From Micromonospora sp. HM5-17 (lineage in GTDB: Bacteria > Actinomycetota > Actinomycetes > Mycobacteriales > Micromonosporaceae): a stretch of 64,000 nucleotides of DNA. The stretch spans positions 372,001 through 436,000 of the forward strand of contig NZ_RJWA01000004.1 in the NCBI RefSeq assembly GCF_003762835.1. The letters run 5' to 3'. The position numbers and the translations under genes were made by a program. Within the stretch, counting starts at the first letter, position 1; each line of letters opens with the position of its first letter. The notes under the pieces are model-generated. The model was not told the origin of the DNA and searched no databases. It was given only the letters and a program-made list of their open reading frames with translations. Of this stretch, positions 3,624 to 20,734 are shown in pieces.

Positions 3624-4721
3624 ATGCTGACCATCCGTCCCGCCGAGGACTGCCGTTTCGACCTGGTCTCGCTCGGTGAGGTCATGCTCCGCCTGGATCC
3701 CGGCGAGGGCCGGGTCCGGACCGCCCGGACGTTCCGGGTCTGGGAAGGGGGTGGCGAGTACAACGTCGCCCGCGGCCTGCGGCGCTGCTTCGGCATGCGT
3801 ACCGCGCTGGTCACCGCCTTCGCCGACAACGAGGTGGGGCGGCTGCTGGAGGACCTGATCCTCACGGGCGGCGTGGACACCAGCTTCGTGAGGTGGGTGC
3901 CCTACGACGGGATCGGCCGCCGCGTCCGCAACGGACTCAACTTCACCGAGCGTGGGTTCGGGGTCCGCGGTGCCGTCGGCACCTCCGACCGCGGCCACAC
4001 CGCGGCCAGCCAGCTCCGCCCGGACGACGTGGACTGGGACCACCTCTTCGGCACCCTCGGCGTCCGGTGGCTGCACACCGGCGGGATCTACGCCGCCCTC
4101 TCCGAGACCACACCGGAGACGATCGAAGCGGCCATGTCCGCGGCGCGCCGGCACGGCACGGTCATCTCGTACGACCTGAACTACCGGCCCAGCCTCTGGA
4201 AGGCGGTCGGCGGACAGGCCCGGGCACAGGAGGTCAACCGGCGTCTCGCCCGGTACGTCGACGTCATGATCGGCAACGAGGAGGACTTCACCGCCGCGCT
4301 CGGCTTCGAGGTGCCCGACACCGACGAGTCCCTCACCGAGCTGGAGGTCGCCAACTTCCAGCGGATGATCGAGGCGGTCACCAAGGAGTACGACAACTTC
4401 CGCGTCGTGGCCACGACGCTACGGACGGTCCGGACCGCGACCATCAACGACTGGGGGGCGATCGCCTGGTCCGCGTCGAGCGGCTTCGTCCAGGCGACGC
4501 ACCGGCCCAACCTGGAGATCCTGGACCGGGTCGGCGGCGGCGACAGCTTCGCCTCCGGGCTGATCTACCAGTTGCTGATCGGCGGTGACCTGGCGACCGC
4601 GGTGGAGTACGGCGCGGCACACGGCGCGCTGGCCATGACGACCCCCGGCGACACCTCGATGGTCAGTCTGAAGGAGGTCGAGGCGCTCGTCCGCGGCGCC
4701 GGCGCCCGCGTACAGCGGTGA
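3624..4721 (+). CDS. kdgK: 2-keto-3-deoxygluconate kinase, PfkB family
   Basis: A 365-residue ribokinase/PfkB-type sugar kinase, expected to phosphorylate 2-keto-3-deoxygluconate for the aldolase upstream. The N-terminal half has the family's GGGEYNVARGL glycine-rich motif (about 42-52). Near residue 302 is DRVGGGDSFASG, with the catalytic Asp in the GxGD motif. The ATG at 3624 has GAAAGGG six bases upstream; an ATG at 3618 is possible but too close to that site. At 365 residues it is somewhat longer than typical KDG kinases. Substrate assignment rests on the operon partner and is inferred. Confidence 0.88.
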   Translation: MLTIRPAEDCRFDLVSLGEVMLRLDPGEGRVRTARTFRVWEGGGEYNVARGLRRCFGMRTALVTAFADNEVGRLLEDLILTGGVDTSFVRWVPYDGIGRRVRNGLNFTERGFGVRGAVGTSDRGHTAASQLRPDDVDWDHLFGTLGVRWLHTGGIYAALSETTPETIEAAMSAARRHGTVISYDLNYRPSLWKAVGGQARAQEVNRRLARYVDVMIGNEEDFTAALGFEVPDTDESLTELEVANFQRMIEAVTKEYDNFRVVATTLRTVRTATINDWGAIAWSASSGFVQATHRPNLEILDRVGGGDSFASGLIYQLLIGGDLATAVEYGAAHGALAMTTPGDTSMVSLKEVEALVRGAGARVQR

Positions 4722-4846
4722 GCGTGGGCCGGGCGGCCGGGGCCGGGTCCGCCGCGCCGGCTGCCGGTTGCCCGGTCGCTTCGGCTGCCGGCCGCGCGAC
4801 CGGTTCGGCACCGGCCCGCCCGGCCGCTCCGATGTCACCGTCCGCC

Positions 4847-4874
4847 TCCTGGCGTATGTCTCCTGGCGTATGTC
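4847..4874. repeat. 14-bp tandem duplication
   Basis: TCCTGGCGTATGTC occurs twice head to tail. A third, diverged copy (TCCTGGCGAATG) lies ten bases downstream at 4885. Confidence 0.85.
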
Positions 4875-5002
4875 ACTTCCCGCCTCCTGGCGAATGCCCC
4901 GGAACCGGCCGTGAGCTGGGCGGACACCTTCTGGTACCGGTGGGCGGATCGTTCGGCGGCACGACCGGCGGCCGGTCGGCCCGGCCTCAGTGTGCCCGGC
5001 GG

Positions 5003-7083: not shown

Positions 7084-7094
7084 CCCTGGTCACC

Positions 7095-7129
7095 CGCGTG
7101 GCCGGTCCCGATCCGGGACCGGCCACGCG
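7095..7129 (+). terminator. Strong hairpin terminator of ctaD
   Basis: A perfect 16-bp stem (CGCGTGGCCGGTCCCG and its complement) with a 3-base loop begins 11 bases after the ctaD stop. It also faces the end of the minus-strand operon and may act both ways. Confidence 0.88.
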
Positions 7130-7239
7130 TCGGTTTCCGCCTCGTCCGCCGCACCGGACCCCGCAGGGACCGTCGACCCGGCGGGCCACCGACCGGCTCC
7201 AACCCCTGCCGCTGGCGGCCTGCGGGCCGACCATCCCGG

Positions 7240-9243
7240 TTACGCGAGCGACAGGTCGTCGCCCCACGACGCCCGGACCAGGGCCCGCTCGGTCGCCGCC
7301 AGGTGGGTCGCGGTCGCCACCCAGGCCCAGGCGTACCGGTCGGGCGCCGGATCGGTGAGCCGGCCGAAGGCGTCCCGACCCCGCCGCCCCGACTCGGCGA
7401 CGAGCGCGGCACCGAGGTCGGCGGCCGTCCGGAAACCGGCCTGGCGGAGCGGGACGCCCAACCCGGAGTCGCCGCCCTGGACCGAGTCGGCGATGGCGCG
7501 CCGCCCGCCGGCGACGGCCAGCTCGACGAGCCGGCGGACGCGCCAGAGCGGCGCGGTGGCGACCGGGTCGGGTCCGGGCTCGCCGGCCGGCGGCTCGGCC
7601 CCGTCGGGCGGCGGGAGATGAGCGCCCTGGAGCAGGTCGTACCCGAGGTCCGCGTGCCCCTGCCAGTCGTCCGGGAGGCGCAGCGTCCGCTCGGCTCCTG
7701 GAACCGGACCGACCGCGAGCGGGTACAGGGTGGTCGCCCGCTCGGGATCGAGCCGGGCCACCACCCGGATCCGCAGCCCCGGCCGGGTCGCCAGGCGGCG
7801 CAGGTTGGTCAGGTGCGCCAGGCTGGGGTGGACGTTGGCCGGCGCCAGCCGGATCAGCGGCCCCGTGGTCGTCGCCAGCTCGCGGGCGAGCAGGTGGGTG
7901 CCGGCGGCGCCGACGACCACGAGATCGGCGCCGACGAGCGCAGCCGGGGCGGTGCTCGGGTCCGCCTGCCCGGGGTCGTCCGCCGCCAGCTGGGCGCGCA
8001 CCGCCTCGGCGAGAGGCCGGGCGAAGAGCCGGGCCAGGGGTTCTGCCGACCAGTCGGGGCTGCTGAACGGGTTGGCCCGGACGCCTCGACCGGAGCCGAG
8101 CCGGCCGTCGGGCGAGACGGTCGTACCGGTGATGACCAGGCCGGCACGGGCCAGCCGGGCATGGGTGAGCCCGGCGGCACCCAGGTCGACGAGCTCCGCG
8201 GCGACCGCGGTCGCCCGCGCCGGCGCGCCCGGCTGGACGTCGGCGACAGAGAACCAGCTGTCCTCGTCGCCCAGGAGGTGGGTCACCACGCCGGCATAGC
8301 CGGTGGCGCTGATCACCGGCTCGCGGCAGACCCCGTACACCCGCAGGTTGCCGCCAGCCCGGTAGCTGCGTCGGGCGACCCCGACCAGCGCCGGGTCGGC
8401 GTCCCCGGCGGCGATCCGGCCAGCGGTGAGCAGCAGTTCGCGCAGCGCGTGGACCAGGTCGGCCAGCCGGTGGTTGTCGTCCCGGGCCCGGGCGGCCCTC
8501 AGGCCGCGGACCACCCGCAGGGCGGCGTTCTCCGCGCGGGGCAGCCCGGCGAGTCGGGCGCTGTGCGTGGCCCGGAGCAGCTCCGCCTGGAGTACGGCGC
8601 CGGCGCCCGGCACCCCGGCGGCCAGCACCGCCGCCGCGGCGTTCCACAGTCCCTCGGCGGCGGCGCGCTGGGCGGCGGAGGGCCCGCGGCTCCGGTGGGC
8701 CCGGCCCGGCTGCCCGCCCCGGGGGGCGGCGCCGGTGGAGTCCGGGACGGCGGAAGCAGCCGATGGTGGCCCGTCACCGGCGTCGCCGGGATCGGTCGCG
8801 GCGTCGTCGGAGGTGGGCGGCGCCGGGAGCAGGTCCGGGTCCGCCACCGGGCAACTGCTCAGGACGGCGACCCGGTGCAGGCAGCGGGGGGCCAGCAGAC
8901 ATCCACACCGCACCTGGTCAGCGTCGGTGAGGACACCGGAGGGTCCGGTGACCAGGGTGACCGGCGCCTCGGGGCCACAGTCGACCCGGACCCCGCCGGC
9001 GATCGCGGCTCGCGGCGCGGTGCGGAGCCGCTCGATCGCCGCGTCGAGCCGCTGGCGCAGCCGGGGAGCCAGCTCCGCCGTGGCGACGGCGAGCAGCCTC
9101 GGCGCCACCGGCGGCAGCGCGACCGGCCGCGTGGTCACTGGCTGTGTGGTCACCGGCCGTGGCGTGGCTCCGGCGCTCTCCGGCCGGGCGTCGTCCCCGT
9201 GCTGAGCAGGGCGGGCCTCGGCCGACACCGATTGCCTCGTCAT
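7240..9243 (-). CDS. SWIM zinc-finger protein, last gene of the MoxR/VWA operon
   Basis: A 667-residue cytoplasmic protein. A SWIM zinc finger (CxCx5CxH) is formed by Cys113, Cys115, Cys121 and His123 in VRCGCLLAPRCLHR. The rest is alpha/beta with many Ala and Leu and no motif I recognise; an Ala/Pro linker lies at about 135-185. It occupies the place of YehQ in the E. coli yehLMPQ locus. Its ATG overlaps the stop of the VWA gene (ATGA), so translation is coupled. SWIM domains usually bind nucleic acid or protein; what this one binds is unknown. Confidence 0.82.
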   Translation of the reverse strand: MTRQSVSAEARPAQHGDDARPESAGATPRPVTTQPVTTRPVALPPVAPRLLAVATAELAPRLRQRLDAAIERLRTAPRAAIAGGVRVDCGPEAPVTLVTGPSGVLTDADQVRCGCLLAPRCLHRVAVLSSCPVADPDLLPAPPTSDDAATDPGDAGDGPPSAASAVPDSTGAAPRGGQPGRAHRSRGPSAAQRAAAEGLWNAAAAVLAAGVPGAGAVLQAELLRATHSARLAGLPRAENAALRVVRGLRAARARDDNHRLADLVHALRELLLTAGRIAAGDADPALVGVARRSYRAGGNLRVYGVCREPVISATGYAGVVTHLLGDEDSWFSVADVQPGAPARATAVAAELVDLGAAGLTHARLARAGLVITGTTVSPDGRLGSGRGVRANPFSSPDWSAEPLARLFARPLAEAVRAQLAADDPGQADPSTAPAALVGADLVVVGAAGTHLLARELATTTGPLIRLAPANVHPSLAHLTNLRRLATRPGLRIRVVARLDPERATTLYPLAVGPVPGAERTLRLPDDWQGHADLGYDLLQGAHLPPPDGAEPPAGEPGPDPVATAPLWRVRRLVELAVAGGRRAIADSVQGGDSGLGVPLRQAGFRTAADLGAALVAESGRRGRDAFGRLTDPAPDRYAWAWVATATHLAATERALVRASWGDDLSLA

Positions 9244-12200
9244 CGTGATCCTCCGCGGAGCCGGTCGCCCACCCAGCGGGCGAGTTCGAGCGGACTGAGT
9301 GCGGCGACCGGCATGCCGGCCGCGACGAGCTGTTGGGCGATCGGTACCGAGTAGCGCGGCACGCCCTTGTCGTCCAGGGCGGCACAGCCGAGCAGGTGTA
9401 CGCCGGAGGTGGCCAACGCCCGGACCTCGCCGAGCAGTCCGGCCAGCGGGTACCCTTCCTCGAAGTCGCTGACGACCACGACGAGCGTCCGACTCGGCAC
9501 CGTCACCAGCGAGCGGGCGTGGGCCAACCCGGCGGCGATGTGTGTCCCGCCTCCGACCCGTACCTCGAGCAGCAGGGAGAGCGGATCGCTGACCCGCTCG
9601 GTCAGGTCGATCACCTCGGTCGAGAAGGCGAGGAAGTGGGTCGACAGCGTCGGGACCCCGCCGAGTACGGCGGCGGTCAGCGCCGACCAGACCACCGACG
9701 CCTCCATCGACCCGGAGACGTCGACCACGAGCACCAGGCGCCAGTCCGCCTCGCGTCGGACGAGGGTGTGGAAGACCGGTCGTTCCGGGATCACCACCAA
9801 CCGGCCGTCGTCGAGCCGTCGGGTGTGCGCCAGGTTGGCCCGCAGGGTGCGGTCGAGGTTGAGCCGACCGCCGGGGCGGCGGGTCGGCCGGGGCGTGCTC
9901 AACCCGGTCAGGGCGGGCTGGAGCCGGGTGGCGAGCTGCCGGGTGAGTTCGTCGACGAGGCGCCGGACGAGGGGCCGCAACCGGGCGAGCTGCGCTTCGG
10001 GCAGGCCGCCGGCAAGCGAGAGCACCGAGGCCAGCAGCGCCACCGAGGGGCGTACGGCGGCGGGGTCGAGCTTGGCGAGCACATCGGCGCGTCCGGTCTC
10101 GGCAGCCTGGGCCAGGACCTCCTCCCGGACACCCGGACCGAAGAGTGCCGTCAGCTCGTCCGCCCACTCCCGGGCGGTCGGGAAGGAGGACTCCTGGCCA
10201 CCGCCGGAGCCGCCCCGCCCGATCTCGGCGGCACCCTCGCCGCGTCCCGTGCCGTACAGCTCGTCCAGTGCGTGCGCGTGCCGCCGCGCCTCGGCGGGAA
10301 GTCGCTCGGGCTGTCGGCCGAGCAGCAGCCGCCACCGGTCGGCCGGGCTGAACCGTCGTCCGGCGGATGCGGAGACGGCGTGGCGGAGGCCGACGGCGGC
10401 GGTGGGGGCGGGGAGCGCCGCCACGGCGGTACGCGCTTCCGGGGTGACGCCGCCCGTCCCGGATCGGAGGTCGGGCGTGTCGGCCGTCCCGGAACGGAGG
10501 GCCGCCGCGCCGCCCGGCCCGGATTGGAGGGTGGCCGCGTCGGCTGTACCGGAACGGCGGTCGGGCGCGGTGGATCCGGGCTGACCGGCCGGGATCCCCG
10601 GCAGCGGCATCGGAAGGCGCAGCGCGGAGAGCGCCGCCCCGCCCGCCGCGTCGGCCGCCGCCCAGCGGGCCAGCAGATCCGGTGGCGCCGAGAGAGCCAG
10701 GTCGAGCCGGTCCCCCAGCCGATCGGTGACCGTCTGCAGCAGTCGGTCCCGGGCGGCGGGGGAGAGGATGTCGAAACCGCCCCGCAACGCCGGCAGCCGG
10801 TCGAGGAAGTCCTGGTCGGTCAGGTGTTCGATCCGGTCCAGCAGGGGGCCGAGCGCGGCCGGGGTCGACTGCAGCAACGGGCCGGCGGCGCTGAGCAGCC
10901 CGCGTAGCAGGCGGTGCAGCCGGCGCCGCCCGTCCGCGTGGGTGCCGGCGTCGACCCAGCCCGCGGCGCGGGCACCGAGAACGTCGGGGGGGTCCAGGTC
11001 GAGCAGGACCCGGGCGGCGAGCGCGGCGCCCTGGATGAGCGGGGAGCCGGTACGGCAGAGTCGATCGAGGGCCTCGTCGAGCAGCAGGCCGGTGCGGTGC
11101 TCGCCGGCGCGGACGGCGAGCGCGACCAGTGCGGCGGCATCCGCCACGTCGTCGCTGCCGGCGAGCCCGGGCAGCCCGCGGAGCGCGGCGTCCAGCAGGA
11201 CGACGGCGAGACTGCCTGCCCGCTCCCGGCTGGCGGCCGTGGTGCCGGGCAGATGCTGTCGGCGCATCGTCTCCAGCAGGTCGAGGGCGGCGACCAACTC
11301 GGCGAGGGTGCCGGCCGCCGGCAGGACCGTGGCGGCCAGGTCGAGCCGCTCGGCCACCAGATCGGGCAGGTCGCACCGGGCCGCGTCGGTCAGGCCGGCG
11401 AGGAGCTGGGCACAGGTCGGTCCCCCGTCGGCGGCCTCCCGCCGGAACCGGTCCCGCAGGGTGCCGGCGGCGGCGAGGGCGGCCGTCACCCCGCGTACGC
11501 CGGCCAGGTCCAGCATGGCCGCGACGGCCGGCTTCCAGGAAACCTGCCACCGGGTGCTGAGCGCCGTGCCGTCACCGACGCCGGAGACCTCGATCGGCTG
11601 GCCGTAGTCGATGCCGCAGATCAGGAGCCGGCGCAGCAGGATCTCCCGGCGTCCGTCGAGTTCCGAGCGGAGCGGATCGAGGCGGAGTTCCCGGGGAGCG
11701 GGATCGTCCGGGTTGGGCAGCCGCAGCGCGGCGAGTTCGGCCTCCACCGCTGGCCCCAGCCCGGAGCGGGGCGTTCCCGGGGCGACCCGGCCCCGGTCGG
11801 CGCCGACCATGACACTCTCCAGGGCCCGGGCCAGCGCGCGACCGCGACCGAGCGGCTCCCCCTGGCCGAGCACCGTGGTCACCGCCTCCAGCAGCTCACC
11901 CCGGCCCGGCGCGGGCAGCGCGCGGAGCCGGGCCAGGTCCTCGGCCACCCGCAGGGTCTCGCCGGCCTCGCCCGTCCCGGCGGTGTGTCCGGCCGCCCGC
12001 AGCGCCCGGCACAGCTCGGTGATGGTCCGGGCGGCGGCCTCGTGGATCCGCTCCGGGTCGCCACCGGCAAGGAAGACGGCCTGCTGCCAGCGGGGGTCGC
12101 GGATGCCCGCCGCGTAGCCGGAGCGGGAGTCGAGCAGGTCGAACGTGTATGGCACCAGCGAGGTCGCGACCCCTCCGCTCGCCGCGACGACGTGCCGGGC

Positions 12201-13073
12201 GTCCGCGGTGTCGACGGCGCGCTCCACGACACCGGACGGGTCGCCCGGAGCGTCGACCGGCTCCGGGGCGGCGGCGTCGGCGGGCTCGGTGAGGGCATCG
12301 GAGAGGTCGGTGAGGGCGGCGGCGTGGAAGGCGCCCACCACGGCGGCGACCCGCCGACCCGCCGCGACTCCCCGCGCGACGATCCGCCGCATGTGCGCCT
12401 CGCGGGCCAGATCCCGGGCCGGTACGCCGGCCCCGGCCACGGCATCCTGGCGCATCGCCCAGCCGACCGCGAGGGCCGCGCGGCGTACCGCCTCGGGCGG
12501 ACAACCCGGAGCGCGTACCTCCACCGCCCGGTCCCACAGGTCGTCGCCGTCCCGGCCGGTTCCGCCAGCGGCGAGGACGGCGGCGAAGCCCGGACGGGGC
12601 ACCGGCGTGTCCGGGGTGCCGTCGGTCCCGCCCCGGGCGGTCGCCGGCTCGCCGGGCGGAGTGGAGTCGTCGGCCGGCCCCGGCGCGGCCGGGACCGGGT
12701 CGGCCCCGGACCAGCCCGGGTCGGCCAGCGGCAGGTCGCAGCAGACCACCTCGACCCCGTGGTCCCGGGCCCACCGGATCGCGGCCAGTTCCGGGGAGAA
12801 GTCGGCGAACGGGTAGAAGCCCAGCCGCCCGTCGTCGTGCGTCCCGGCCAGCGCCACCGGCGCGCGGGTGGCCGGATCGGCCAGGTACGGCAGCCACCGC
12901 TGGAAGTCGGTCGGCAGCTCGACGCAGACCAGGTTGGGCGCGGCGGCGTCCAGCAGCGCCGGAACGACAGCGGCCACCGCCGGACTGTGGTGGCGTACCC
13001 CGATCAGGTATGGCTCGACCGAATCGGCGAGGCGGTCGAGCACCGCCCGCGGATCGGTCGACACGGCGGTCAT
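9240..13073 (-). CDS. DUF5682-VWA fusion protein
   Basis: A 1277-residue protein in two parts. The N-terminal part (about 1-820) starts with YLIGVRHHSPA and VCVELPTDF, a pattern I associate with DUF5682 (YehM-like). Then comes a low-complexity linker (about 833-875) built of imperfect RSGTAD-like repeats. The C-terminal part ends in a von Willebrand factor A domain (about 1110-1277) with an intact MIDAS, DVSGSM, the threonine region GGGTHIAAGL and VVSDFEE. In E. coli the two parts are separate genes, yehM and yehP. MoxR ATPases typically act with VWA partners, and the moxR gene ends one base into this start (TGATG). Function is unknown. Confidence 0.82.
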   Translation of the reverse strand: MTAVSTDPRAVLDRLADSVEPYLIGVRHHSPAVAAVVPALLDAAAPNLVCVELPTDFQRWLPYLADPATRAPVALAGTHDDGRLGFYPFADFSPELAAIRWARDHGVEVVCCDLPLADPGWSGADPVPAAPGPADDSTPPGEPATARGGTDGTPDTPVPRPGFAAVLAAGGTGRDGDDLWDRAVEVRAPGCPPEAVRRAALAVGWAMRQDAVAGAGVPARDLAREAHMRRIVARGVAAGRRVAAVVGAFHAAALTDLSDALTEPADAAAPEPVDAPGDPSGVVERAVDTADARHVVAASGGVATSLVPYTFDLLDSRSGYAAGIRDPRWQQAVFLAGGDPERIHEAAARTITELCRALRAAGHTAGTGEAGETLRVAEDLARLRALPAPGRGELLEAVTTVLGQGEPLGRGRALARALESVMVGADRGRVAPGTPRSGLGPAVEAELAALRLPNPDDPAPRELRLDPLRSELDGRREILLRRLLICGIDYGQPIEVSGVGDGTALSTRWQVSWKPAVAAMLDLAGVRGVTAALAAAGTLRDRFRREAADGGPTCAQLLAGLTDAARCDLPDLVAERLDLAATVLPAAGTLAELVAALDLLETMRRQHLPGTTAASRERAGSLAVVLLDAALRGLPGLAGSDDVADAAALVALAVRAGEHRTGLLLDEALDRLCRTGSPLIQGAALAARVLLDLDPPDVLGARAAGWVDAGTHADGRRRLHRLLRGLLSAAGPLLQSTPAALGPLLDRIEHLTDQDFLDRLPALRGGFDILSPAARDRLLQTVTDRLGDRLDLALSAPPDLLARWAAADAAGGAALSALRLPMPLPGIPAGQPGSTAPDRRSGTADAATLQSGPGGAAALRSGTADTPDLRSGTGGVTPEARTAVAALPAPTAAVGLRHAVSASAGRRFSPADRWRLLLGRQPERLPAEARRHAHALDELYGTGRGEGAAEIGRGGSGGGQESSFPTAREWADELTALFGPGVREEVLAQAAETGRADVLAKLDPAAVRPSVALLASVLSLAGGLPEAQLARLRPLVRRLVDELTRQLATRLQPALTGLSTPRPTRRPGGRLNLDRTLRANLAHTRRLDDGRLVVIPERPVFHTLVRREADWRLVLVVDVSGSMEASVVWSALTAAVLGGVPTLSTHFLAFSTEVIDLTERVSDPLSLLLEVRVGGGTHIAAGLAHARSLVTVPSRTLVVVVSDFEEGYPLAGLLGEVRALATSGVHLLGCAALDDKGVPRYSVPIAQQLVAAGMPVAALSPLELARWVGDRLRGGSR

Positions 13074-14281
13074 CACCGGAGCGTCTCCCGCAGGTCCCAG
13101 AGCCGCCGCCACAGCGGTGACCCGTCCTCGGCGCGGCGCCGTACCGGCCCGTCCCAGTAGCCGATCAGCCGGCCGTGGTCGGCCTCGTCGTCCTTGCGGA
13201 CCACGCCGAGCAGGTGCCCGGGGAGCAGGTCGAGCGCGTCCGCCGGGGACAGGTACGCCGTGGCCAGCCCGAGCGACGTCGCGACCTGCACCGCCTCGGC
13301 GGTGGACATCACCGTCCCCGGCCGTTCCACGTCCCAGCCCTCGGCACAGCGGCCGCTCCGCAGGTCCCGGAAGACCGTGACCAGGGCATCCAGCACGGCG
13401 TCGTCCACCGTGTACGCCGCGCCGGCCCGCTCGACCGCGGCGGTAGCCTGTCGGCGGACCAGCGCCATCTCGGTCGCGGCGTCGGCGATCGGGTGGATCG
13501 TCTCGAAGTTGAACCGGCGCTTGAGCGCGGCCGACATCTCCGACACGCCCCGGTCGCGCAGGTTGGCGGTGGCGATCACGGTGAAGCCGGGCGCCGCCGG
13601 GATCACCCCACCGGGGGTGTCGGCGAGCTCGGGCACGGTGATCCGCCGGTCGGAGAGGATCGACACCAGCGCGTCCTGCACCTCCGGTAGGCAGCGGGTG
13701 ATCTCCTCGACCCGGGCCACCCGGCCGGTACGCATCGCGGTCAGCACCGGGGACTCGACCAGCGCCTGCCGGGTCGGCCCCTGAGCGAGCAGCATGGCGT
13801 AGTTCCAGCCGTACCGGAAGGCGTCCTCGGTGGTGCCGGCGGTGCCCTGCACGGTCAGCGCGCTGGTGCCGCAGACCGCGGCGGCCAGCAGCTCCGAGAG
13901 CATCGACTTCGCCGTGCCGGGCTCGCCGACCAGCAGCAGGCCCCGCTCGCCGGCCAGGGTGACCACACAGCGCTCGACGAGGGCGCGTTCGCCGACGAAC
14001 TTTGCGGAGATGACCAGGCTGGCCGGCAGTTTGGTGCCGTCGGGGGCGGTACGCCGCCCCGCCGGCAGGCGGAGCTCCTCCCCGTCGCTGCCCCGGACGA
14101 AGGTGACCACGGCCCGCGGGGTCAGCGCCCAACCCGGCGGCCGGGGTCCGTCGTCGTACGCCGCAAGGAAGGCCAGCTCGGTGGCGTACCGCCGTTCGGC
14201 GGGAAGGATCTGCCAGGCGGAGTCGCCCGTCGCCGGGTTGGCGGGGGTCAAATCGGTGCTGGTCTCGTGTGTCGTGCTCAC
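13073..14281 (-). CDS. MoxR-family AAA+ ATPase (YehL-like)
   Basis: The 402-residue ATPase has an N-terminal extension of about 100 residues before the AAA+ core. The core contains Walker A GEPGTAKS (119-126), a Walker B region RVEEITRCLPEVQDAL with acidic residues, sensor 1 in VIATANLRDRG, and the arginine-finger segment LKRRFNF. MoxR ATPases act as chaperone-like remodellers with VWA proteins. The extension, the SWIM and DUF4132 partners and the gene order point to the YehL subfamily. The ATG directly follows an AT-poor, repeat-rich gap, so the gene may have its own promoter. Confidence 0.9.
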   Translation of the reverse strand: MSTTHETSTDLTPANPATGDSAWQILPAERRYATELAFLAAYDDGPRPPGWALTPRAVVTFVRGSDGEELRLPAGRRTAPDGTKLPASLVISAKFVGERALVERCVVTLAGERGLLLVGEPGTAKSMLSELLAAAVCGTSALTVQGTAGTTEDAFRYGWNYAMLLAQGPTRQALVESPVLTAMRTGRVARVEEITRCLPEVQDALVSILSDRRITVPELADTPGGVIPAAPGFTVIATANLRDRGVSEMSAALKRRFNFETIHPIADAATEMALVRRQATAAVERAGAAYTVDDAVLDALVTVFRDLRSGRCAEGWDVERPGTVMSTAEAVQVATSLGLATAYLSPADALDLLPGHLLGVVRKDDEADHGRLIGYWDGPVRRRAEDGSPLWRRLWDLRETLR

Positions 14282-14595
14282 CGGAGGTCCCTGATCTCTT
14301 CTCTGTCGTGGCTCTGCCGAGCCGGTACGGGTGTGGGGTGTCTGTCGAACCCCGGTCTGCGGGAGGCGGACCCGGCGGTGTCGGTCGCGGACCCGGCGGT
14401 GTCGGTCGGGTCTGCGTCAGGCCTGCGTCGGGCCTGCGTCGGGTCTGCCTGCCCGCCGCGCCGCTGTGGCGCCGCGACGTCGGGTCGCCGACCGGGGGGC
14501 GGCGCGGCCCGGAGGTCGGGCCGCCCACCAGGAGCGGGTGCGGCTGATACCGGTTCCGGCGGCGGTCCGGGACCGGCGCGGTGGGCGCGGACGGG
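14282..14595. other. Repeat-rich gap upstream of moxR
   Basis: About 310 bases between the 1626-residue gene and moxR, within an otherwise tightly packed operon. No credible ORF was seen. It contains a 21-bp tandem duplication and three CTGCGTC motifs 11 bases apart (14412, 14423, 14434). It could hold an internal promoter or a processing site; no clear -10 box was identified. Confidence 0.55.
14366..14407. repeat. 21-bp tandem duplication
   Basis: Two adjacent identical 21-base copies beginning GCGGACCCGGCGG, followed by the CTGCGTC series. It lies upstream of the moxR start on the minus strand. Confidence 0.85.
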
Positions 14596-17500
14596 TCAGC
14601 GGCGGCCCCGGGTCGGCGTCCGGAGTTCCTCGAGCCGAGGAACGTCGCCGTCGCGGATCCGTTGCCAGGCCCGCCGGTAGAGGTCCGGCACCGGCTCCAG
14701 CGGAAGGTCCGTGCTGAACGGCGGCACCGGCTGCCCCGGGATGGTGAACAGCGGGGTCTTCCACTGCTCCGAGGGGAGCCGCGGCGCCGGGTGCTCCTGC
14801 CAGGCACCGGGCAGGAAGAGCGAGCGTCCGGCCCGGCTCCGGGTGGCCGACACGACCAGCTCCGTGCTGGCGAGTTCGGCGCGGGCGGCCTTGAGCCGGG
14901 CCGGCTTCCACCCGGTCCAGCGGGCCACGTTGCGGTCCGTCGGGTCGGGCATGGCCAGCAGCATCAGGTACAGCGCGGCGGCGTCCGCGCCGAGCCCGTG
15001 CACGGCGGCGACCTCGGCGACCAGCTCCGGCACCGAGCGGCCCGGATCCTGCGGCCACCAGGTGCCGTCGCGGTCCCGCTCGCCGGCGACGGGGTCACCC
15101 GGATCGGCCAGCAGTGCGGCGAAGCCCGGATCGCGGGCCAGCCGCAGCGCCACCTCGACCGGGTACATCTGCTGGGACTCGTCGCGTAGCGCCGGCAGGA
15201 ACGGGTCGCTGCCGGTCTCGTCGAGCAGCGCCACCCGGATGCCCGGATCCGGCTGGTGGTCATGGGTGGCCAGCACGACGGCGCCGTACCGTTCCCAGCC
15301 GTCCCCAATCTCGGTCGGGGCGCCGGCGATCCGGCGGAAGGCGCTGAGCGAGACGTACCGGCCCAGGCCGAGCAGCAGCTCGGGGTTGGCGAGCCGGTCC
15401 CGCAGGGCGGCGAGGCCGGCGGGCAGCGCGGCCCGGACCGGGTCGCCCGCCGGGGTGTGGTGGGCCACCCAGGCGGCGGTGGCGATCACGCCGACCAGGG
15501 TCTCGGCGTCGAAGCCGCGGCCGCTGCCGTCCACCGGGGCGACCCGGTCGCCCCGCACGGTCCAGACGAGGTCGGTGCTCAGCTCCGGCGTGCCGTCCGG
15601 GTCGAGCAGTGCCGGCAGCGCCATGTCGGGTCCCCAGCCGACCCGCACCTCCTTGACCGCGTCCGCGAGGAGCTGTTCGGGGACGGCCGGACGCCGGCCC
15701 ACCGCCGCGTTCCACACCTTCGCTGCGGCGGCCACGTCCGGCCCATCGGTCCAGAGCCGGGCCGGTTCGGCGGGGAGCAGCGCCGCGAGGATGGCCCGGC
15801 GGACCTCGTCCTTGACCCGACCGAGCTGCCGGTGGGCGTACGCGACCTCAATCGACTTCACCCCGAGCAGCGTGCGGGTGTCGGCGGGGAGTGCGGTCCC
15901 GGTGTCGACGTGGGGCATGCCGGCCAGCACCAGCTTGGCCGTCGTCGGGGTGACCCCGGTGAGGTCCGAGAAGCGCTCGGCGGCCTCGGCACGCCACGGC
16001 AGCGGGCCGCGGGCGTCCCACTCGGCGAGGAAGGACGCGAGCCAGCCGGCGGGCCGCTCGGCGCCGAGCGGCTCCGAGGAGCGCGCGACGTACGGGGCTG
16101 GTATGGCGAAGGTGCCCGTGGGGTCGTGGTAGAGCGCGAAGAAGGTGGAGCCGGACGGCGTCGCCGGCTGGCAGTCGTAGACGGCGATGAAGGCGCCCCC
16201 GCCCAGCAGCAGGATGCCCCGCCGGTGGCCGAACCGGCGGGTGCCGTCCGGCAGCGTCAGGTGGCTGTCGTCGAGGTGCAGGGTGAACCACCGCCAGCGG
16301 GGCGGCTCACCCGCCGTGGCCAGGCCCAGCCCGTCCAGTCGCGCGAGCAGGACGCGGAGCGCCGCGCGGGCCGGCTCCGGTGTGGGCGCGGCAACCGCCC
16401 GGTAGGCGATCGCCGCGGGCTGGGCGAGCCGCTCCGGCGTGATCATCTCGGACCACGGCAGCTCCGGGCCGTCGAGGTGCAGGCGCGGACGCGGGTCCGG
16501 TGCCGGCGCGGCGACGGCCCGGCTGAGCAGCCGTAGCTGACGGAGCGTCGCCTGAGGATCGGATGCCGAGAGGCGCCGCATGCCCCCGAGCCCGTCCAGC
16601 GCGCTGAGCAAACCCGCGTCGGTCGGCCCGCTGATCGGCTCCTCCGGCGGCGTCGCGGCCGGCTCCCGACGGAGCCGTTCCGCCAGCCGGTCCAGCACGG
16701 CCTGCCGGTCCACGGCGAAGCGCAGCACGCCGACCACCCCGGCCACCAGCGCGTCGTGACCGAGCTGCGGGATCGCGGCGCGGACCAGGGCGGCCAGCTC
16801 CGCCGTCCGGTCGGCGTCGGTCTGGACCCCGTTGGCCGCCCTGGCCCGGTGCGTGGCCTGCTGCGCCAACGCGGCCTTGAGCAGGGCGGCGACGGTCTCC
16901 CGGTCGATTCGGCGGAGCGCGGCGGAACCCTCCGGGTCGCGGGCCCGTAGCTGGGTCCAGTACGGCCGGGGTGGCAGCGGCACCGCCACGGGGTCGTACT
17001 CCCGGCCGTCCGGCCCGAGCACCGCCGTGACGAGACCGTCCGGGCCGACCAGGCTGCCGTCGTCGAGCACCGCCCGGGGGCGGTCGTCGCCGGGCAGGGT
17101 CAGCGCGCCGACCGGGGTCCGGCCGTCGGCCACGGTGACGGTACGACCGGCCAGGTCCTCGCCACGCGCCGACCCGTCCGGCAGCCGTACCACCCGCCAG
17201 CCGAGCAGCCCGCCGACCGGTACGCCGAGCGGGGTGACCCGGTCCGTCGGGGCGGGCAACACCCAACTGGCGGGCTCGTCGAGGGTGCTGCCGGCCGGAG
17301 CGCCGGCCAGCGCCTTGGCGAGGAAGGCGGGCAGCCCCCGCCGGCCGTAATCCCCGCCGGTCGGGTCGTACTCGTACCACCCGAGGCCCTGGTCGCCCTG
17401 GCGGTACACCCAGTACGACCTCCCGTCGCTGATGATCCGCCGCTCCTTGGGCACCACCGTGTCCCCGACGTGCAGCACGCCGGCCCCCGTGGTACGGCCG

Positions 17501-19476
17501 CCACCGGCCAGTGGCAGCGTCGGGGTGCCGCCGTCCCGGGAGGTGCGGCCCGCGATCGGCTGCGGTTCGCCCGCCGAGGAGTGCCAGTAGCCCACCACGG
17601 TGTAGTCGTGGGCGAGTGAGGACCAGCACACCAGCAGCGTCCCGTCGACGTAGTGGAAGCTGGGTGGGCGCCAGGGGGAGTCGCCCGGGGGGATCCGCAG
17701 GTCGTGGCGGAGCACGATGCCGTCCGCGTCGATCACCCGCGCCCGGGTCGGCCCGGCGACCACCAGGTACGGCCAGGCGTCCGCGACGATCCGCCGCTTG
17801 TACGGGTCGGCGCCGACCACCTCGGCGAGCGCCTCCTCCCAGGCCGGCCAGCCCAGCTCGGCGACGATCCCGCCCCGGAGGGTACGGGCGACCGTCTCGG
17901 CCAGATCGGTGCGGCTCGCGGCGGAGACCTCGTCCGGAGCCAGCGCCAGCGCCTCGCGAGGCAGTGCGGCCAGGCGTTCGGTGGCGTCGTACAGCCCCGG
18001 CAGCGCCGCCGTGTCGCACTCCCGAGCCCACGCGCGGACCTGCTCGGCGAGCACGGTACGCCCGCCGGCGAGCCGGGCCAGCAGCCGGATCACCGAGTCG
18101 CCGGCGTCGCGCGGGTCGGCGATCGTCCGGCGCAGCGCCGCCCGGTACCGGGGGTCGGCGGCGATCCCCGACAGGTCGCGCTGCCCGTCGCCGCTGGCCC
18201 AGACGTCCAGGTGGAGCGGCCGGTCACCCGGATCGTCCACGGGCAGGCCCAGCGAGAGCAGCAGGTCGACCAGATCGAGATCGGGGACGAACTCGATCGT
18301 GTCGCCCGTCTCGGCGAGTTCCCGCCGGAGTTGGTCGGCCATCCGGCTGACGAGCGCGTACAGCTCGGGCAGCCGGGGCGGTCGCCGGCGGCCCCGGTGC
18401 CGGGAGTCGAGAAGGCGCCGCAGCCAGCCCACCGACCCGTCGGCCGGGCGCTCCGCGGCGGGGAGCGTGCCGTCGACCAGCCCCTCGACGGCGCCGGTGC
18501 GGGTCAGCACCTCCAGCCACTGTGGCAGCACCGTGCCGTCGTGGTCGTCTCGGGGCATCAGGTCCAGCAGGACGCCCCGGACCGTGCGATCCGCCGCGGC
18601 CAACCCGACCAGCTCCGGCAGGTGCGCCCGCCACCAGGCCATGGCGTTGGTCGTCGCCGGCAGGCGGATCAGCTCCGCCAGGTACGCGCGCTCGCGTGCC
18701 TCCGCCCCGGCCGGGTCGCCGGCCTTCTTCGCGGCCCGGACCAGCCGGCGTACCGCGGTCGCGGTCTGCGCCGACGGCACCAGCCCGGCCGCGACGCTGC
18801 GGACGCCGAGCCGGCAGAACCGGTCCAGCGCCTCGGCGGCGGGGAGCCGGGCGGCCAGGTCCTTGGCGTATCCGGCGAGCGTGGCCGCCGAGAGCGCCCC
18901 GGCCAGGGCGAACTCCAGGTAGACCGCGTCGAGGCGGTCCGGATCGACGGGCAGGCCGTGTTCGGCCTCGGCCCGGCGGGCCCGGGTGAACATCTGCCCC
19001 GCGTACGCCTGCTCCTCCAGGGCGAGGAAGACCCGGCCGGCCTGCTCGTAGAAGGTCGGCAGGAAGTGCGGCACCGAGCGGGCCAGCCGCCCGGCGAGAG
19101 CGTGGTACGCCTCGACGGCGAGCCTGGCCTTGGACCGGGCCTGCTCGGCGATCCGCCGCAGCTCCGGGAGGACCGCCAGGGCGTGTCGGCCGTCCTCGGG
19201 GTGGTGCACCAGCACCCACTCGGGGAAGCCCAGCACCTGGCGCTGGCCCAGCCCGACCGGGACCGGTTCGTCGACCCGGGTCAGCCCGAGGAAGCCCGCC
19301 GTCGCGTCCTCCGCGGCGCCCAGCTCGGCGGCGACCAGCCGGACCACCGGCCGGTCGTCCAACACCGGGTGCCGATAGGTCCGGGCGGTCAGCGGTACGG
19401 CGTGCTCGGCCGCCCCGTCGGTCTCCAGCGGCAGGATCGCGCCGGCCGCCAGCAGCTCCTCGGCCTCGCTCGTCAT
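14596..19476 (-). CDS. Very large (1626-residue) protein of the MoxR/VWA operon, function unknown
   Basis: I do not recognise a catalytic domain. The first 500 residues are helical and repeat-like, rich in Leu, Ala and Arg. The middle (about 550-900) is beta-rich with aromatic strands such as DGRSYWVYRQGDQG and GTLLVCWSSLAHDY, resembling a beta-propeller or WGR-like region. The C-terminal half mixes helices with a second beta stretch (LDDSHLTLPDGTRRFGH). It lacks signal peptide and membrane segments, so it is cytoplasmic. By position it corresponds to a large partner of YehI/MolR type. ATG was chosen; a GTG three codons upstream overlaps the previous stop (GTGA) and is equally possible. Confidence 0.75.
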   Translation of the reverse strand: MTSEAEELLAAGAILPLETDGAAEHAVPLTARTYRHPVLDDRPVVRLVAAELGAAEDATAGFLGLTRVDEPVPVGLGQRQVLGFPEWVLVHHPEDGRHALAVLPELRRIAEQARSKARLAVEAYHALAGRLARSVPHFLPTFYEQAGRVFLALEEQAYAGQMFTRARRAEAEHGLPVDPDRLDAVYLEFALAGALSAATLAGYAKDLAARLPAAEALDRFCRLGVRSVAAGLVPSAQTATAVRRLVRAAKKAGDPAGAEARERAYLAELIRLPATTNAMAWWRAHLPELVGLAAADRTVRGVLLDLMPRDDHDGTVLPQWLEVLTRTGAVEGLVDGTLPAAERPADGSVGWLRRLLDSRHRGRRRPPRLPELYALVSRMADQLRRELAETGDTIEFVPDLDLVDLLLSLGLPVDDPGDRPLHLDVWASGDGQRDLSGIAADPRYRAALRRTIADPRDAGDSVIRLLARLAGGRTVLAEQVRAWARECDTAALPGLYDATERLAALPREALALAPDEVSAASRTDLAETVARTLRGGIVAELGWPAWEEALAEVVGADPYKRRIVADAWPYLVVAGPTRARVIDADGIVLRHDLRIPPGDSPWRPPSFHYVDGTLLVCWSSLAHDYTVVGYWHSSAGEPQPIAGRTSRDGGTPTLPLAGGGRTTGAGVLHVGDTVVPKERRIISDGRSYWVYRQGDQGLGWYEYDPTGGDYGRRGLPAFLAKALAGAPAGSTLDEPASWVLPAPTDRVTPLGVPVGGLLGWRVVRLPDGSARGEDLAGRTVTVADGRTPVGALTLPGDDRPRAVLDDGSLVGPDGLVTAVLGPDGREYDPVAVPLPPRPYWTQLRARDPEGSAALRRIDRETVAALLKAALAQQATHRARAANGVQTDADRTAELAALVRAAIPQLGHDALVAGVVGVLRFAVDRQAVLDRLAERLRREPAATPPEEPISGPTDAGLLSALDGLGGMRRLSASDPQATLRQLRLLSRAVAAPAPDPRPRLHLDGPELPWSEMITPERLAQPAAIAYRAVAAPTPEPARAALRVLLARLDGLGLATAGEPPRWRWFTLHLDDSHLTLPDGTRRFGHRRGILLLGGGAFIAVYDCQPATPSGSTFFALYHDPTGTFAIPAPYVARSSEPLGAERPAGWLASFLAEWDARGPLPWRAEAAERFSDLTGVTPTTAKLVLAGMPHVDTGTALPADTRTLLGVKSIEVAYAHRQLGRVKDEVRRAILAALLPAEPARLWTDGPDVAAAAKVWNAAVGRRPAVPEQLLADAVKEVRVGWGPDMALPALLDPDGTPELSTDLVWTVRGDRVAPVDGSGRGFDAETLVGVIATAAWVAHHTPAGDPVRAALPAGLAALRDRLANPELLLGLGRYVSLSAFRRIAGAPTEIGDGWERYGAVVLATHDHQPDPGIRVALLDETGSDPFLPALRDESQQMYPVEVALRLARDPGFAALLADPGDPVAGERDRDGTWWPQDPGRSVPELVAEVAAVHGLGADAAALYLMLLAMPDPTDRNVARWTGWKPARLKAARAELASTELVVSATRSRAGRSLFLPGAWQEHPAPRLPSEQWKTPLFTIPGQPVPPFSTDLPLEPVPDLYRRAWQRIRDGDVPRLEELRTPTRGRR

Positions 19477-19481
19477 CGTCC

Positions 19482-20345
19482 TCACGCGTCCTTCCCTGGC
19501 GCGTCGGGCCGGCCACCGGCCAGTGCCGCCGCCATCCGCATCCCTTCCGACCAGGCCACCGGCCCCACCTCCGCCAGCCGTAGGTGCCGGCCGTCCCGCA
19601 GCCGCCAGGAGAGAGCGCCCATCGTCCAGCGTGACCAGTAGTCGCCGTTGAGCCACGCAACCGCCTCGACGATCCGGCCAGCCTCGTGCACGCGGCAGGT
19701 GACCGTCGACCCGGAGACGCGGCAGCCCAGCGCGGTGGCCCGGGCGACGACGGCGGCGTGGTTGGCGAGCGTCGCCCCGTCGAAGTCGGTGACCTCGGTG
19801 GCGTGTTCGCTGAGCCGCGCTGGCTTCGCCCAGGTGGAGCGGTGGAGCTGTTCGACCCGCTGGGTGATGCCCAGCTCGGTGGCGAACTCCCGGAGGTCGT
19901 CCCGGGCGGGCAGCAGGACCGGGTGCGGCAGGGTCACCGTCCCGGCGGGGAGCCGGCGGGTCTCCCCGTCGAGGTCGAAGACCCGCAGCTCGCCGGTGTC
20001 GGTCACCTCGCCGAGGAACAGTGGCACGGCCGGGTCGTCGCCGACCACGACCAGGTGGCGGAGCAGGTCCCGCCAGGCCGGGTCCGGCCAGACCCGGGCG
20101 AGCAGCGTGGTGGACACCGGGAGGGACGAGACCATCCAGGCGGTGACCTGGGCCAGGCAGGCGGCGGCGTGCCGGTCGAGCCACTCGACGAGCTGACGCA
20201 GCCGGTCCACCTCGGGATGGTCCCGTACTGTCTTCGGCAGTGTCTTGAGTGGACGGCCAGACCCCCGTCGGCCGACCGACCGGGCGACCACCTTGCCGTC
20301 CATCAGAGAGACCTCGTACGCCTCACCGGCCGACAGCCAGCCCAC
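19482..20345 (-). CDS. DUF4132-like protein, first gene of the MoxR/VWA operon
   Basis: A 287-residue cytoplasmic protein. The segment after residue 40 (LPKTVRDHPEVDRLRQL, WPDPAWRDLLRHLVV, LPHPVLL, GDYWSRWTMGALSW) looks like the DUF4132 domain found at the end of E. coli MolR/YehI, here as a short stand-alone protein; this rests on memory, not a search. The GTG start has GAGAAGGG seven bases upstream. The longer open frame 5' of it is a Pro/Arg-rich shadow. The gene ends five bases before the 1626-residue gene's ATG, so the two are co-translated. Confidence 0.68.
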   Translation of the reverse strand: MGWLSAGEAYEVSLMDGKVVARSVGRRGSGRPLKTLPKTVRDHPEVDRLRQLVEWLDRHAAACLAQVTAWMVSSLPVSTTLLARVWPDPAWRDLLRHLVVVGDDPAVPLFLGEVTDTGELRVFDLDGETRRLPAGTVTLPHPVLLPARDDLREFATELGITQRVEQLHRSTWAKPARLSEHATEVTDFDGATLANHAAVVARATALGCRVSGSTVTCRVHEAGRIVEAVAWLNGDYWSRWTMGALSWRLRDGRHLRLAEVGPVAWSEGMRMAAALAGGRPDAPGKDA

Positions 20346-20734
20346 GCCTTCACCCTTCTCCGCTACCGAGGAACGCCCCGCGCCGGCCCGTCCCCGCCTG
20401 GCGCCGCGCCGCCGGCCGGGTCCGGCCCCGGGCTCAGGCTGGCGGGGCGAACGCTCCGGCACGGCGGGTCCGCCGTCCCGGATGATTCCGGGCCGTGCGG
20501 AATCTGCGGGATCGCGCGGGATCTCCGGCGCGACCGGGAACACGCGGAACGCTAACCGGCGGCACCGACAGGATTTCGCGCCCCCGCCCCGGGCAGGGTA
20601 CGAGACACCGAGGTAGCCGGTGGCGGCGAGCCCGGACACGACCGACGGTCAGCCGAGGTGCAGCGCCGCGGCCCGGGGTCGGGGCAGGGGAGCCGGCCCG
20701 GGGTCGGGCGGAAGGGCCGGGGCAGGGCTGACGG
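20346..20734. other. Leader/promoter region of the MoxR/VWA operon
   Basis: About 390 bases without a credible gene, between the operon's first gene and the end of the MFS gene. Two inverted repeats stand out: ACGGCGG-GT-CCGCCGT (20461-20476) and GATTCCG-N7-CGGAATC (20484-20504). On the minus strand these would lie in the 5' leader or operator area. A TACCCT box near 20600 (minus strand) is a weak -10 candidate. Confidence 0.45.

Follow-up and report, generated by a model that had tools for sequence, protein, structure and literature searches.

Within a 64,000-nucleotide stretch of the genome of the soil actinobacterium Micromonospora sp. HM5-17 (the window, by which we mean this whole stretch), five open reading frames (ORFs), here g1 to g5, lie on the minus strand at positions 7240-20345. 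They form an operon that we propose, tentatively and with a probability of about 0.4, to encode a five-gene MoxR-VWA machine, in which a MoxR ATPase would turn a VWA domain and act, through a helical solenoid, on a putative metal-dependent hydrolase. The five genes are conserved as a set, and the P-loop of the ATPase and the metal-ion-dependent adhesion site (MIDAS) motif of the VWA domain are both intact; a Tiki-like domain and the solenoid in g4, and a beta-propeller in g2, are predicted. What is new here is that the N-terminal domain of DUF5682, placed ahead of a modelled helical solenoid and an intact VWA domain, resembles the Tiki/TraB superfamily in its sequence motifs and in matches below cut-off; also new is a confident model of g2 that includes a beta-propeller. 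The operon is one of four architectures (types A to D, letters of our own naming) in which a MoxR-DUF5682-VWA core occurs, and we refer to it as type C. Its genes, and the sole long gap between them, are as follows.

20345-19482, minus strand: g1, free-standing DUF4132 protein, 287 amino acids, GTG start
19476-14596, minus strand: g2, protein without a known family, 1626 amino acids, ATG start
14282-14595, minus strand: g2/g3 gap, 314 nucleotides
14281-13073, minus strand: g3, MoxR AAA+ ATPase of the YehL type, 402 amino acids, GTG start
13073-9240, minus strand: g4, DUF5682-VWA fusion, 1277 amino acids, ATG start
9243-7240, minus strand: g5, SWIM-type zinc-finger protein, 667 amino acids, ATG start

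The initial annotation of this DNA had described a 13-kb five-gene operon here, with stops and starts overlapping or nearly touching at three of its four junctions. All five ORFs were in place, with a gap of 5 nucleotides between g1 and g2, an overlap of 1 nucleotide between g3 and g4 (TGATG) and one of 4 nucleotides between g4 and g5 (ATGA); the GTG starts of g1 and g3 are uncertain. Across 80 homologous loci (see below) the median gap was -4 nucleotides at each of these three junctions and 108.5 nucleotides between g2 and g3, where 12 of the 80 loci exceeded 300 nucleotides and the window lies in the upper tail, all these counts depending on automatic start choices, some of which yielded absurdly short gene models that were filtered but not corrected. 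Neither an NCBIfam search of g1 to g5 (no family above cut-off) nor a simple hydropathy scan (no membrane segment in any of the five proteins) added to the domain picture, of which the parts bearing on the proposed engine and enzyme are these.

13904-13927, minus strand: g3 Walker A motif GEPGTAKS, residues 119-126, present in every one of the 80 type C rows (the window plus 79 loci)
13703-13708, minus strand: g3 Walker B E192-E193, Glu-Glu instead of Asp-Glu
12294-13031, minus strand: g4 residues 15-260, predicted Tiki/TraB-like alpha/beta domain, from motifs and below-cut-off matches
10620-11483, minus strand: g4 residues ~531-818, predicted helical solenoid (HEAT/ARM-like), mapped by alignment from the L084 model
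9270-9935, minus strand: g4 VWA domain, residues 1047-1268, with MIDAS motif DxSxS (D1118), from Pfam and motif

As the initial annotation had supposed, g4 joins DUF5682 (Pfam, E 1.7e-206, residues 37-1018) to a VWA domain (VWA_CoxE, E 1.4e-63, residues 1047-1268), and the MIDAS motif recurs in all 28 VWA rows compared across types A to D. An AlphaFold2 model of the g4 homologue from locus L084, made with 59 rows (mean predicted local distance difference test score, pLDDT, 73; predicted template modelling score, pTM, 0.44), has the layout of an alpha/beta N-domain, a long helical solenoid and a VWA domain. Alignment A1 comprised the window and 58 of the 60 rows listed (L036 and L088 excluded), and alignment A3 comprised 38 of 39 (L036 excluded). 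Among 38 N-domains, 23-64% identical to that of the window, residues H28, H29, P31, E52, S93, E95 and D113 were invariant, and R224, E225 and H250 were kept in at least 90%. Read beside the catalytic residues familiar from TraB relatives, the conserved His, Glu, Arg and His motifs follow the Tiki/TraB order and are in register with TraB over R...GxxH.

Profile comparisons pointed the same way. Thirteen of the 38 N-domains matched the Pfam family TraB_PrgY_gumN (best E 0.01), more than matched any other outside family, since ChaN, YjeF_N and YAcAr were each matched by two and all others by one. The match of the window covers TraB positions 12-48 and that of Rhizobium positions 214-246, that is, the first and the last motifs in the right order. 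With hhalign, 28 columns spanning the R...GxxH motif aligned between DUF5682 and a set of eight TraB sequences (P 6e-4), as against P 0.13-0.8 for five unrelated control families. Plasmid records supplied seven of the eight sequences, including a near-identical pair, and E. coli the eighth, YbaP; they came from outside because TraB was found in none of the 61 genomes, the window's own among them. On this footing the DUF5682 N-domain resembles the Tiki/TraB superfamily and may be a metal-dependent hydrolase, possibly a peptidase; Tiki/TraB proteins are termed potential metalloproteases in PMC12329661.

Several results weigh against this assignment, which rests on motifs and below-cut-off matches. 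No Tiki-superfamily match exceeded its curated cut-off (that of the window to TraB scored 11 bits against 26.8), the two matches to ChaN, the other Tiki-type family, were no more than those to YjeF_N or YAcAr, and one N-domain matched CBM46 with a better E value, 0.0054. Since 18 of the 38 N-domains are type C relatives, the 13 TraB matches are not independent. Global alignment of the DUF5682 N-domain to TraB failed, a profile of the 38 N-domains found no Tiki-fold chain in the Protein Data Bank (PDB), and sequence searches of the PDB gave no convincing relative of either the N-domain or the VWA part. A Foldseek search with the whole g4 model returned mostly helical-repeat proteins, with no Tiki fold and no E value of 0.001 or less among the 50 matches listed. 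Against erythromycin esterases, which are kin to the TraB family, DUF5682 gave a weak hhalign score (P 0.058) with the same Arg motif aligned; erythromycin esterases compared with TraB as a control reached only P 0.34, so the test is insensitive.

The motor component is better placed. The g3 protein matched AAA_5 (Pfam, E 1.1e-35), and its profile scored 329.1 bits against YehL (E 1.3e-101) but 4.6 bits against RavA, the other E. coli MoxR protein, which bears out the expected YehL subfamily. The long N-terminal extension reported in the initial annotation exists, but is mostly common to YehL, residues 12-383 of the g3 profile aligning to YehL residues 7-359. The Glu-Glu pair at Walker B, present in all 80 type C rows and in each of the 30 systems compared from types A to D where RavA has Asp-Glu, marks the YehL branch in these sets. 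YehL is among the seven MoxR subfamilies named in PMC3893208. The only PDB sequence matches of g3 were to midasin, and a PADLOC search of the operon gave one chance-level match, to REase_II on g3 (E 0.041).

The remaining proteins would, on this proposal, be the part of the machine that faces its targets, and their mapped features are listed here.

17017-17790, minus strand: g2 residues 563-820, predicted beta-propeller, from DSSP strands of the model and Foldseek
14815-15045, minus strand: g2 residues 1478-1554, winged-helix-like element of helices and then a two-stranded hairpin, from model and conservation
8875-8907, minus strand: g5 SWIM motif C113-x-C115-x5-C121-x-H123, near-invariant columns

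No Pfam family matched g2 even at E 10, and hydropathy gave no membrane-spanning segment (top 19-residue mean 1.65). Structure prediction, proposed in the initial annotation, proved informative: AlphaFold2 modelled residues 440-1626 (66 rows) at mean pLDDT 88.5 and pTM 0.74, placing a propeller mid-protein with helical parts around it and a helical or winged end, within a well-conserved terminus (1471-1626); the label winged helix is our own interpretation of the model. Foldseek returned 437 PDB matches at E up to 10 with a best E of 7.1e-3, and none of the 50 listed reached 0.001, so that a propeller is the likely fold class, short of formal significance. Those 50 are, as we take them, mostly known propellers (virginiamycin B lyase, TolB, acylaminoacyl peptidase, clathrin and others), and some are chains of large complexes with uninformative titles. 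From the model, g2 likely carries a beta-propeller. Mean pairwise identity (60 sets with all five proteins complete, window included; 400 sampled pairs) was 0.59 for g2, 0.63 for g5, 0.75 for g4, 0.76 for g1 and 0.87 for g3, with residues 821-1060 of g2 least conserved (0.45); as the fastest-evolving member, g2 seems to behave like a target-facing part. PDB sequence searches gave no convincing relative of g2 or g5.

The DUF4132 identity of g1, also anticipated, is firm (PF13569, E 5.9e-26, 91.9 bits against a cut-off of 27, residues 30-199). The same domain sits near the C-terminus of YehI (954-1138 of 1210), and hhalign placed g1 against the C-terminal region of DUF4132 proteins of the yeh type at P 7e-4. 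For g5, which had been called a SWIM zinc-finger protein, the motif supports the name, the pattern C-x-C-x(4,8)-C-x-H occurring in 63 of 64 rows, but the Pfam SWIM match stayed below cut-off (E 0.11).

That the five genes belong together is best seen in their conservation. A genome-collection scan with g3 gave 567 confirmed stretches, of which the best 80 were kept, so this locus set leans to close relatives; they come from Streptomyces, Nonomuraea, Micromonospora, Streptosporangium, Actinocorallia and others. In all 80 loci g2, g3 and g4 were found, g1 in 77 and g5 in 73, with identical order and strand, and the three loci missing g1 and the seven missing g5 are ones whose contig stops near or within the operon. 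After a length filter 76 of 77 rows remained for g1, 76 of 80 for g2, 79 of 80 for g3, 73 of 80 for g4 and 63 of 73 for g5, to each of which the window was added. The flanks are mostly unshared (the commonest flanking family occurs in 11 of 80 loci), and a single locus, L040, shares the neighbours of the window on the g1 side. In a set of 61 genomes, made up of 60 relatives in addition to the window's own, DUF5682 occurred in 36 and the DUF5682-VWA fusion in 15, 11 seen directly and four inferred from ORFs of 1201-1549 amino acids with g2 adjoining. All 15 had a g2 match next to the fusion and a DUF4132 match beyond it, the DUF4132 ORF measuring 294-407 amino acids in 14 and 982 in G003. Outside fusion loci, g2 matches were weak fragments in G012 and a second partial copy in G003. 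Across the phylum, DUF5682 was found in 24 of 396 genomes drawn, a count that may be low because only two candidates per genome were scored. The expectation that the five genes are conserved together is thus borne out by the 80-locus set and by the 15 fusion genomes.

The set also moves. It is present in five of seven same-genus genomes, and its neighbours in the window are a ctaD-like gene on one side and a major facilitator superfamily (MFS) gene on the other, at a site that is empty elsewhere.

7084-20734, unstranded: stretch missing at the same site in two same-genus genomes, from the ctaD end (7083) to the MFS gene (20735)

In genomes G004 and G006 the ctaD and MFS neighbours are adjacent, separated by 139 and 237 bp, while the full five-gene set is present in G006 at another location. 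In G005, g4, g2 and g1 lie between the same two genes, g3 was also detected and g5 was not shown there; the MFS gene adjoins g1 in G002 and G003 as well. The names ctaD and pncB for neighbours in the window are our assumption from reading the sequences rather than from a family search, and the other neighbours, the MFS gene included, were named by Pfam. An inserted element with terminal repeats was rejected, the two edge stretches sharing no exact direct or inverted repeat of 10 bases or more. The five genes are a conserved movable set, gained, lost and moved as a unit. Carriage by phages was rejected, as only one of 50,697 phage records matched: MT835988.1, an unannotated 14.2-kb faecal record labelled 'Bacteriophage sp.' that may be bacterial DNA, with a DUF5682-VWA relative at 9359-12608 (67% covered, 29.8% identity).

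Some individual loci deserve mention in their own right. Two Streptomyces loci have an extra gene between g2 and g3 (L073:8367-9968 and L095:8403-9974), which in L095 matches SMI1/KNR4 (SUKH-1) slightly below cut-off (E 5.1e-4) and in L073 matches nothing at E 0.01. In Nonomuraea jabiensis (L098:14785-16571) an IS605-type transposase gene (TnpB-like) and a resolvase gene lie between g4 and g5 on the opposite strand, and in Actinocorallia populi (L080:13-9895) similarity to g2 runs across nearly 10 kb upstream of MoxR, as if there were a second g2 copy. The g2-like ORFs of L210 (G003:C54) and L211 (G012:C4), 1302 and 844 amino acids long, have no MoxR, DUF5682 or SWIM gene detected alongside. 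Three same-genus loci (L206, L207 and L208) hold a 368-amino-acid ORF between a PfkB gene and ctaD that is absent from the window (4721-4990). Control of the operon by the SOS response was rejected, no LexA-like GAAC-N4-GTTC site lying near it (the single occurrence in the window is at 52105), and a second palindrome pattern searched for regulation was too loose to be informative. The loose pattern RTC-N8-GAY occurred 105 times in the whole window against 81 expected from shuffles, probably through codon usage.

Beyond type C, the core recurs, in plasmid loci and in actinobacterial genomes, in three other architectures. Type A comprises a large DUF4132 protein, MoxR, DUF5682, VWA and SWIM (E. 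coli, Iodobacter, actinobacteria), with DUF4132 placed between DUF5682 and VWA in Agrobacterium. Type B comprises SWIM, DUF5691, MoxR, DUF5682 and VWA (Deinococcus, Rhizobium, Methylosinus, Hymenobacter, actinobacteria). Within it, the SWIM and DUF5691 proteins of Rhizobium, recorded as hypothetical, were assigned by place and length; Methylosinus and Hymenobacter have no VWA gene among those listed in their incomplete tables, the Hymenobacter DUF5682 being in pieces. Of seven actinobacterial type B loci, SWIM occurs in five and DUF5691 in two, with one or the other in six, and L149 has a divergent arrangement. Type C is the order seen in the window (DUF4132, g2, MoxR, DUF5682-VWA, SWIM), and one of its loci, L163, had no g5 detected. 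Type D consists of a long VWA protein, MoxR and a diverged DUF5682. One such set lies in the window's own genome (L148, G000:C50:142808-144586), with a VWA protein of 799, a MoxR of 371 and a DUF5682 relative of 995 amino acids and no SWIM gene found by profiles; similar sets occur in L159, L160 and L161.

In trees of MoxR (30 rows, covering relatives of the MoxR-DUF5682-VWA core), DUF5682 (29 rows) and VWA (28 rows), each of the four types fell on one side of a branch with Shimodaira-Hasegawa-like approximate likelihood ratio test (SH-aLRT) support of 92-100, and the type C branch had 99-100 in all three. As the types separate in all three trees, MoxR, DUF5682 and VWA have been inherited together, although certain rows were assigned to a type by their core, with few or none of the partners, and for these the test is partly circular. 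Nothing is drawn from the order of the four types, given the quick tree method and a long-branch warning for VWA. On sequence grounds, MoxR, DUF5682 and VWA are the core of a wider family of shared ancestry. Two further unions were tried and rejected: the SWIM proteins of types A and B as one family, for which the motif alone aligned with hhalign, and g2 as a diverged YehI or DUF5691, which gave no match by profile search or hhalign.

How such a machine might work can be pictured from NorQD, in which, according to PMC13036017, a finger of the VWA domain enters the MoxR pore and ATP turnover twists the linker between the N-domain and the VWA domain. By analogy with this twisting model, a g3 hexamer would hold the g4 VWA domain, and ATP turnover would rotate that domain and pull the solenoid. 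The Tiki-like domain would thereby open or be presented to a bound target, which g2, g1 and the SWIM protein g5 would bind or recognise and bring to the machine. The earlier suggestion of an ATP-driven remodelling machine draws support from the MoxR-VWA pair, whereas the nucleic-acid or protein sensor suggested with it is conjecture. The likely role lies in protein quality control or a conditional response to stress and not in constant metabolism; as a hint of stress, an operon that includes a DUF4132 gene was induced upon DdrO depletion in Deinococcus radiodurans (PMC8533742). Against the proposal as a whole stand, besides the below-cut-off Tiki matches, the predicted nature of the roles of all members, the putative nature of any link between the Deinococcus DUF4132 operon and such a system, the separate DUF5682 and VWA proteins of types A and B, which mean that a fused linker is not essential, and a distribution, patchy in actinobacteria and near-universal in E. 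coli, that points to different roles.

The same parts can be read in other ways. A rather unlikely candidate is a maturation chaperone, in which MoxR and VWA insert a metal or cofactor or complete the assembly of an enzyme, as CoxD-CoxE and NorQ-NorD do, and DUF5682 is a target-binding or metal-carrying part and not a hydrolase. The VWA domain does fall in a CoxE-like Pfam family, near-core status in E. coli fits housekeeping, the Tiki superfamily includes the haem-binding ChaN, matched below cut-off by two of 38 N-domains, and a neighbour in the window reads, from sequence alone, as the oxidase subunit gene ctaD. That gene, however, holds the same place in same-genus genomes whose site lacks the operon, the 80 loci have no client enzyme gene in common, and absence of the operon from two of seven same-genus genomes is odd for a core enzyme helper. 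NorQD drives metal insertion (PMC13036017) and molR was named for molybdate use (a title cited in PMC8533742), but molybdate genes were unchanged in PMC8533742. Distinctly improbable, in our judgement, is a dead Tiki-like scaffold in a machine that would only remodel or unload a complex of nucleic acid and protein, with the SWIM protein and the winged-helix-like g2 end recognising that complex. SWIM proteins and such a g2 end would be compatible with nucleic-acid binding, and midasin, the sole PDB sequence match of g3, is a complex-remodelling AAA protein; yet eight potential active-site residues are invariant or kept in at least 90% of the 38 N-domains, unexpected if the domain were dead, and nucleic-acid binding by g5 or g2 is putative only.

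A conflict system, anti-phage or inter-strain, which the initial annotation had also raised, strikes us as unlikely. It would be a further class beside the MoxR-vWA ternary systems of Kaur et al. 2020, with g2 sensing an invader, ATP hydrolysis setting a threshold and DUF5682 or g1 as effector. The MoxR-vWA core, the GXXXTAKS-kind P-loop and the predicted propeller partner are as in their subsystem 4, and the core is not exchanged between types, as stated for those systems (PMC7159879). A fast-evolving third component (g2) and gain, loss and movement as a unit would also suit it, as would plasmid relatives near restriction-modification genes (Iodobacter), a PDDEXK nuclease and a recombinase (Hymenobacter), and a VapC toxin-antitoxin pair and transposases (Methylosinus), although plasmids are rich in such genes anyway. 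The hosts include actinobacteria that grow as mycelia. On the other side, PADLOC gave no match beyond chance for the operon and none for seven E. coli and Deinococcus components, and the five genes are constant within type C, without the effector swapping that marks the published systems. A defence island was rejected, flanking families recurring in at most 11 of 80 loci (these families were not sorted into defence and other), and the fact that 5162 of 5426 complete E. coli genomes retain yehL-yehQ to 80% or more speaks against a plain defence island. The available main text of PMC7159879 does not mention SWIM, YehL, DUF5682 or DUF4132.

Extending the ATP-gated hydrolase proposal from this operon to the whole family is unlikely too, if slightly less so than the conflict reading. 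The core would then define a widespread, undescribed class of machines, each with an AAA+ ring that mechanically opens a Tiki-fold metalloprotease by way of a solenoid linker, in which exchangeable partners (a DUF4132 protein, DUF5691, or g1 with g2, together with SWIM proteins) choose the target, and type C would fix the coupling of engine to enzyme by gene fusion. Should the hydrolase be real and ATP-gated, the machine would show an AAA+ ring driving an enzyme in a novel manner. Whatever its action, the MoxR-DUF5682-VWA trio stays together across at least four architectures and four phyla, and actinobacteria supply a naturally fused DUF5682-VWA version. A YehL-branch core occurs in ~95% of complete E. 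coli genomes, and in the literature searched the branch is named as a subfamily with no function found. The candidate residues of DUF5682 and the E. coli K-12 locus make the proposal tractable for testing. Our literature search, which left out most subscription papers, found no paper with DUF5682 or DUF5691 and none describing the set; of three papers with DUF4132, two do not treat it as a system. Within that literature the set is undescribed, as the initial annotation had supposed.

Among known loci the operon is closest to E. coli yeh (yehI-yehK-yehL-yehM-yehP-yehQ), to which the initial annotation had likened its parts. Apart from the intervening g2 and the fusion, the order DUF4132, MoxR, DUF5682, VWA, SWIM is identical, and the MoxR, DUF5682 and VWA parts are true relatives of YehL, YehM and YehP, the N-terminal part of g4 matching YehM at E 5.7e-33 and its C-terminal part YehP at E 4.5e-78. 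The likeness is partial for the rest. The DUF4132 domain is shared with YehI but is a free protein of 287 amino acids in the window against 1210 in YehI; g5 is weakly like YehQ-type proteins, at the SWIM end only (hmmsearch E 0.097; hhalign P 4.7e-4 over 88 columns); YehM and YehP are separate where g4 is fused. For g2, profile search and hhalign detected no counterpart in yeh, and the core of the window lies outside the type A branch in the MoxR, DUF5682 and VWA trees. As a side observation on yeh, an E. coli plasmid (L147, NZ_CP103756.1) of the conjugative IncF kind carries yehI and yehL-yehQ near blaCTX-M-15, and a blaCTX-M-15 transposon is described in the chromosomal yeh region of sequence type 131 (ST131) in PMC9334617. 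Type B loci share the MoxR-DUF5682 core, to which VWA and a SWIM protein are usually joined as neighbours, but have DUF5691 in place of DUF4132 and g2, no fusion, and a SWIM gene that comes first or is divergent and whose product has no detectable profile likeness to g5.

With the MoxR-vWA beta-propeller ternary systems (Kaur et al. 2020, PMC7159879) the operon shares the MoxR-vWA pair and the GXXXTAKS P-loop, and a propeller is predicted in its partner g2, but it fails three tested features of the published systems: g3 scored 22.1 bits against bpMoxR (PF20030; cut-off 27), the VWA domain is C-terminal (its last residue is 1268 in a protein of 1277) and is followed by no propeller, and g2 is without a membrane-spanning segment by hydropathy. 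The Tiki superfamily (Tiki/TraB/PrgY, ChaN, erythromycin esterase) differs in that the window domain reaches no curated cut-off and is fused to a solenoid and a VWA domain, and resembles it in a GxxH-type motif, a Glu ~25 residues on, and then R...GxxH. NorQ-NorD and CoxD-CoxE differ in that the N-domain in the window is DUF5682, that three further proteins are encoded in the operon and that no client is known, but they have in common with it a MoxR ring and a VWA protein, the VWA domain of the window belonging to the VWA_CoxE family; and NorD (PMC13036017) likewise has an N-domain and a linker ahead of its VWA domain.

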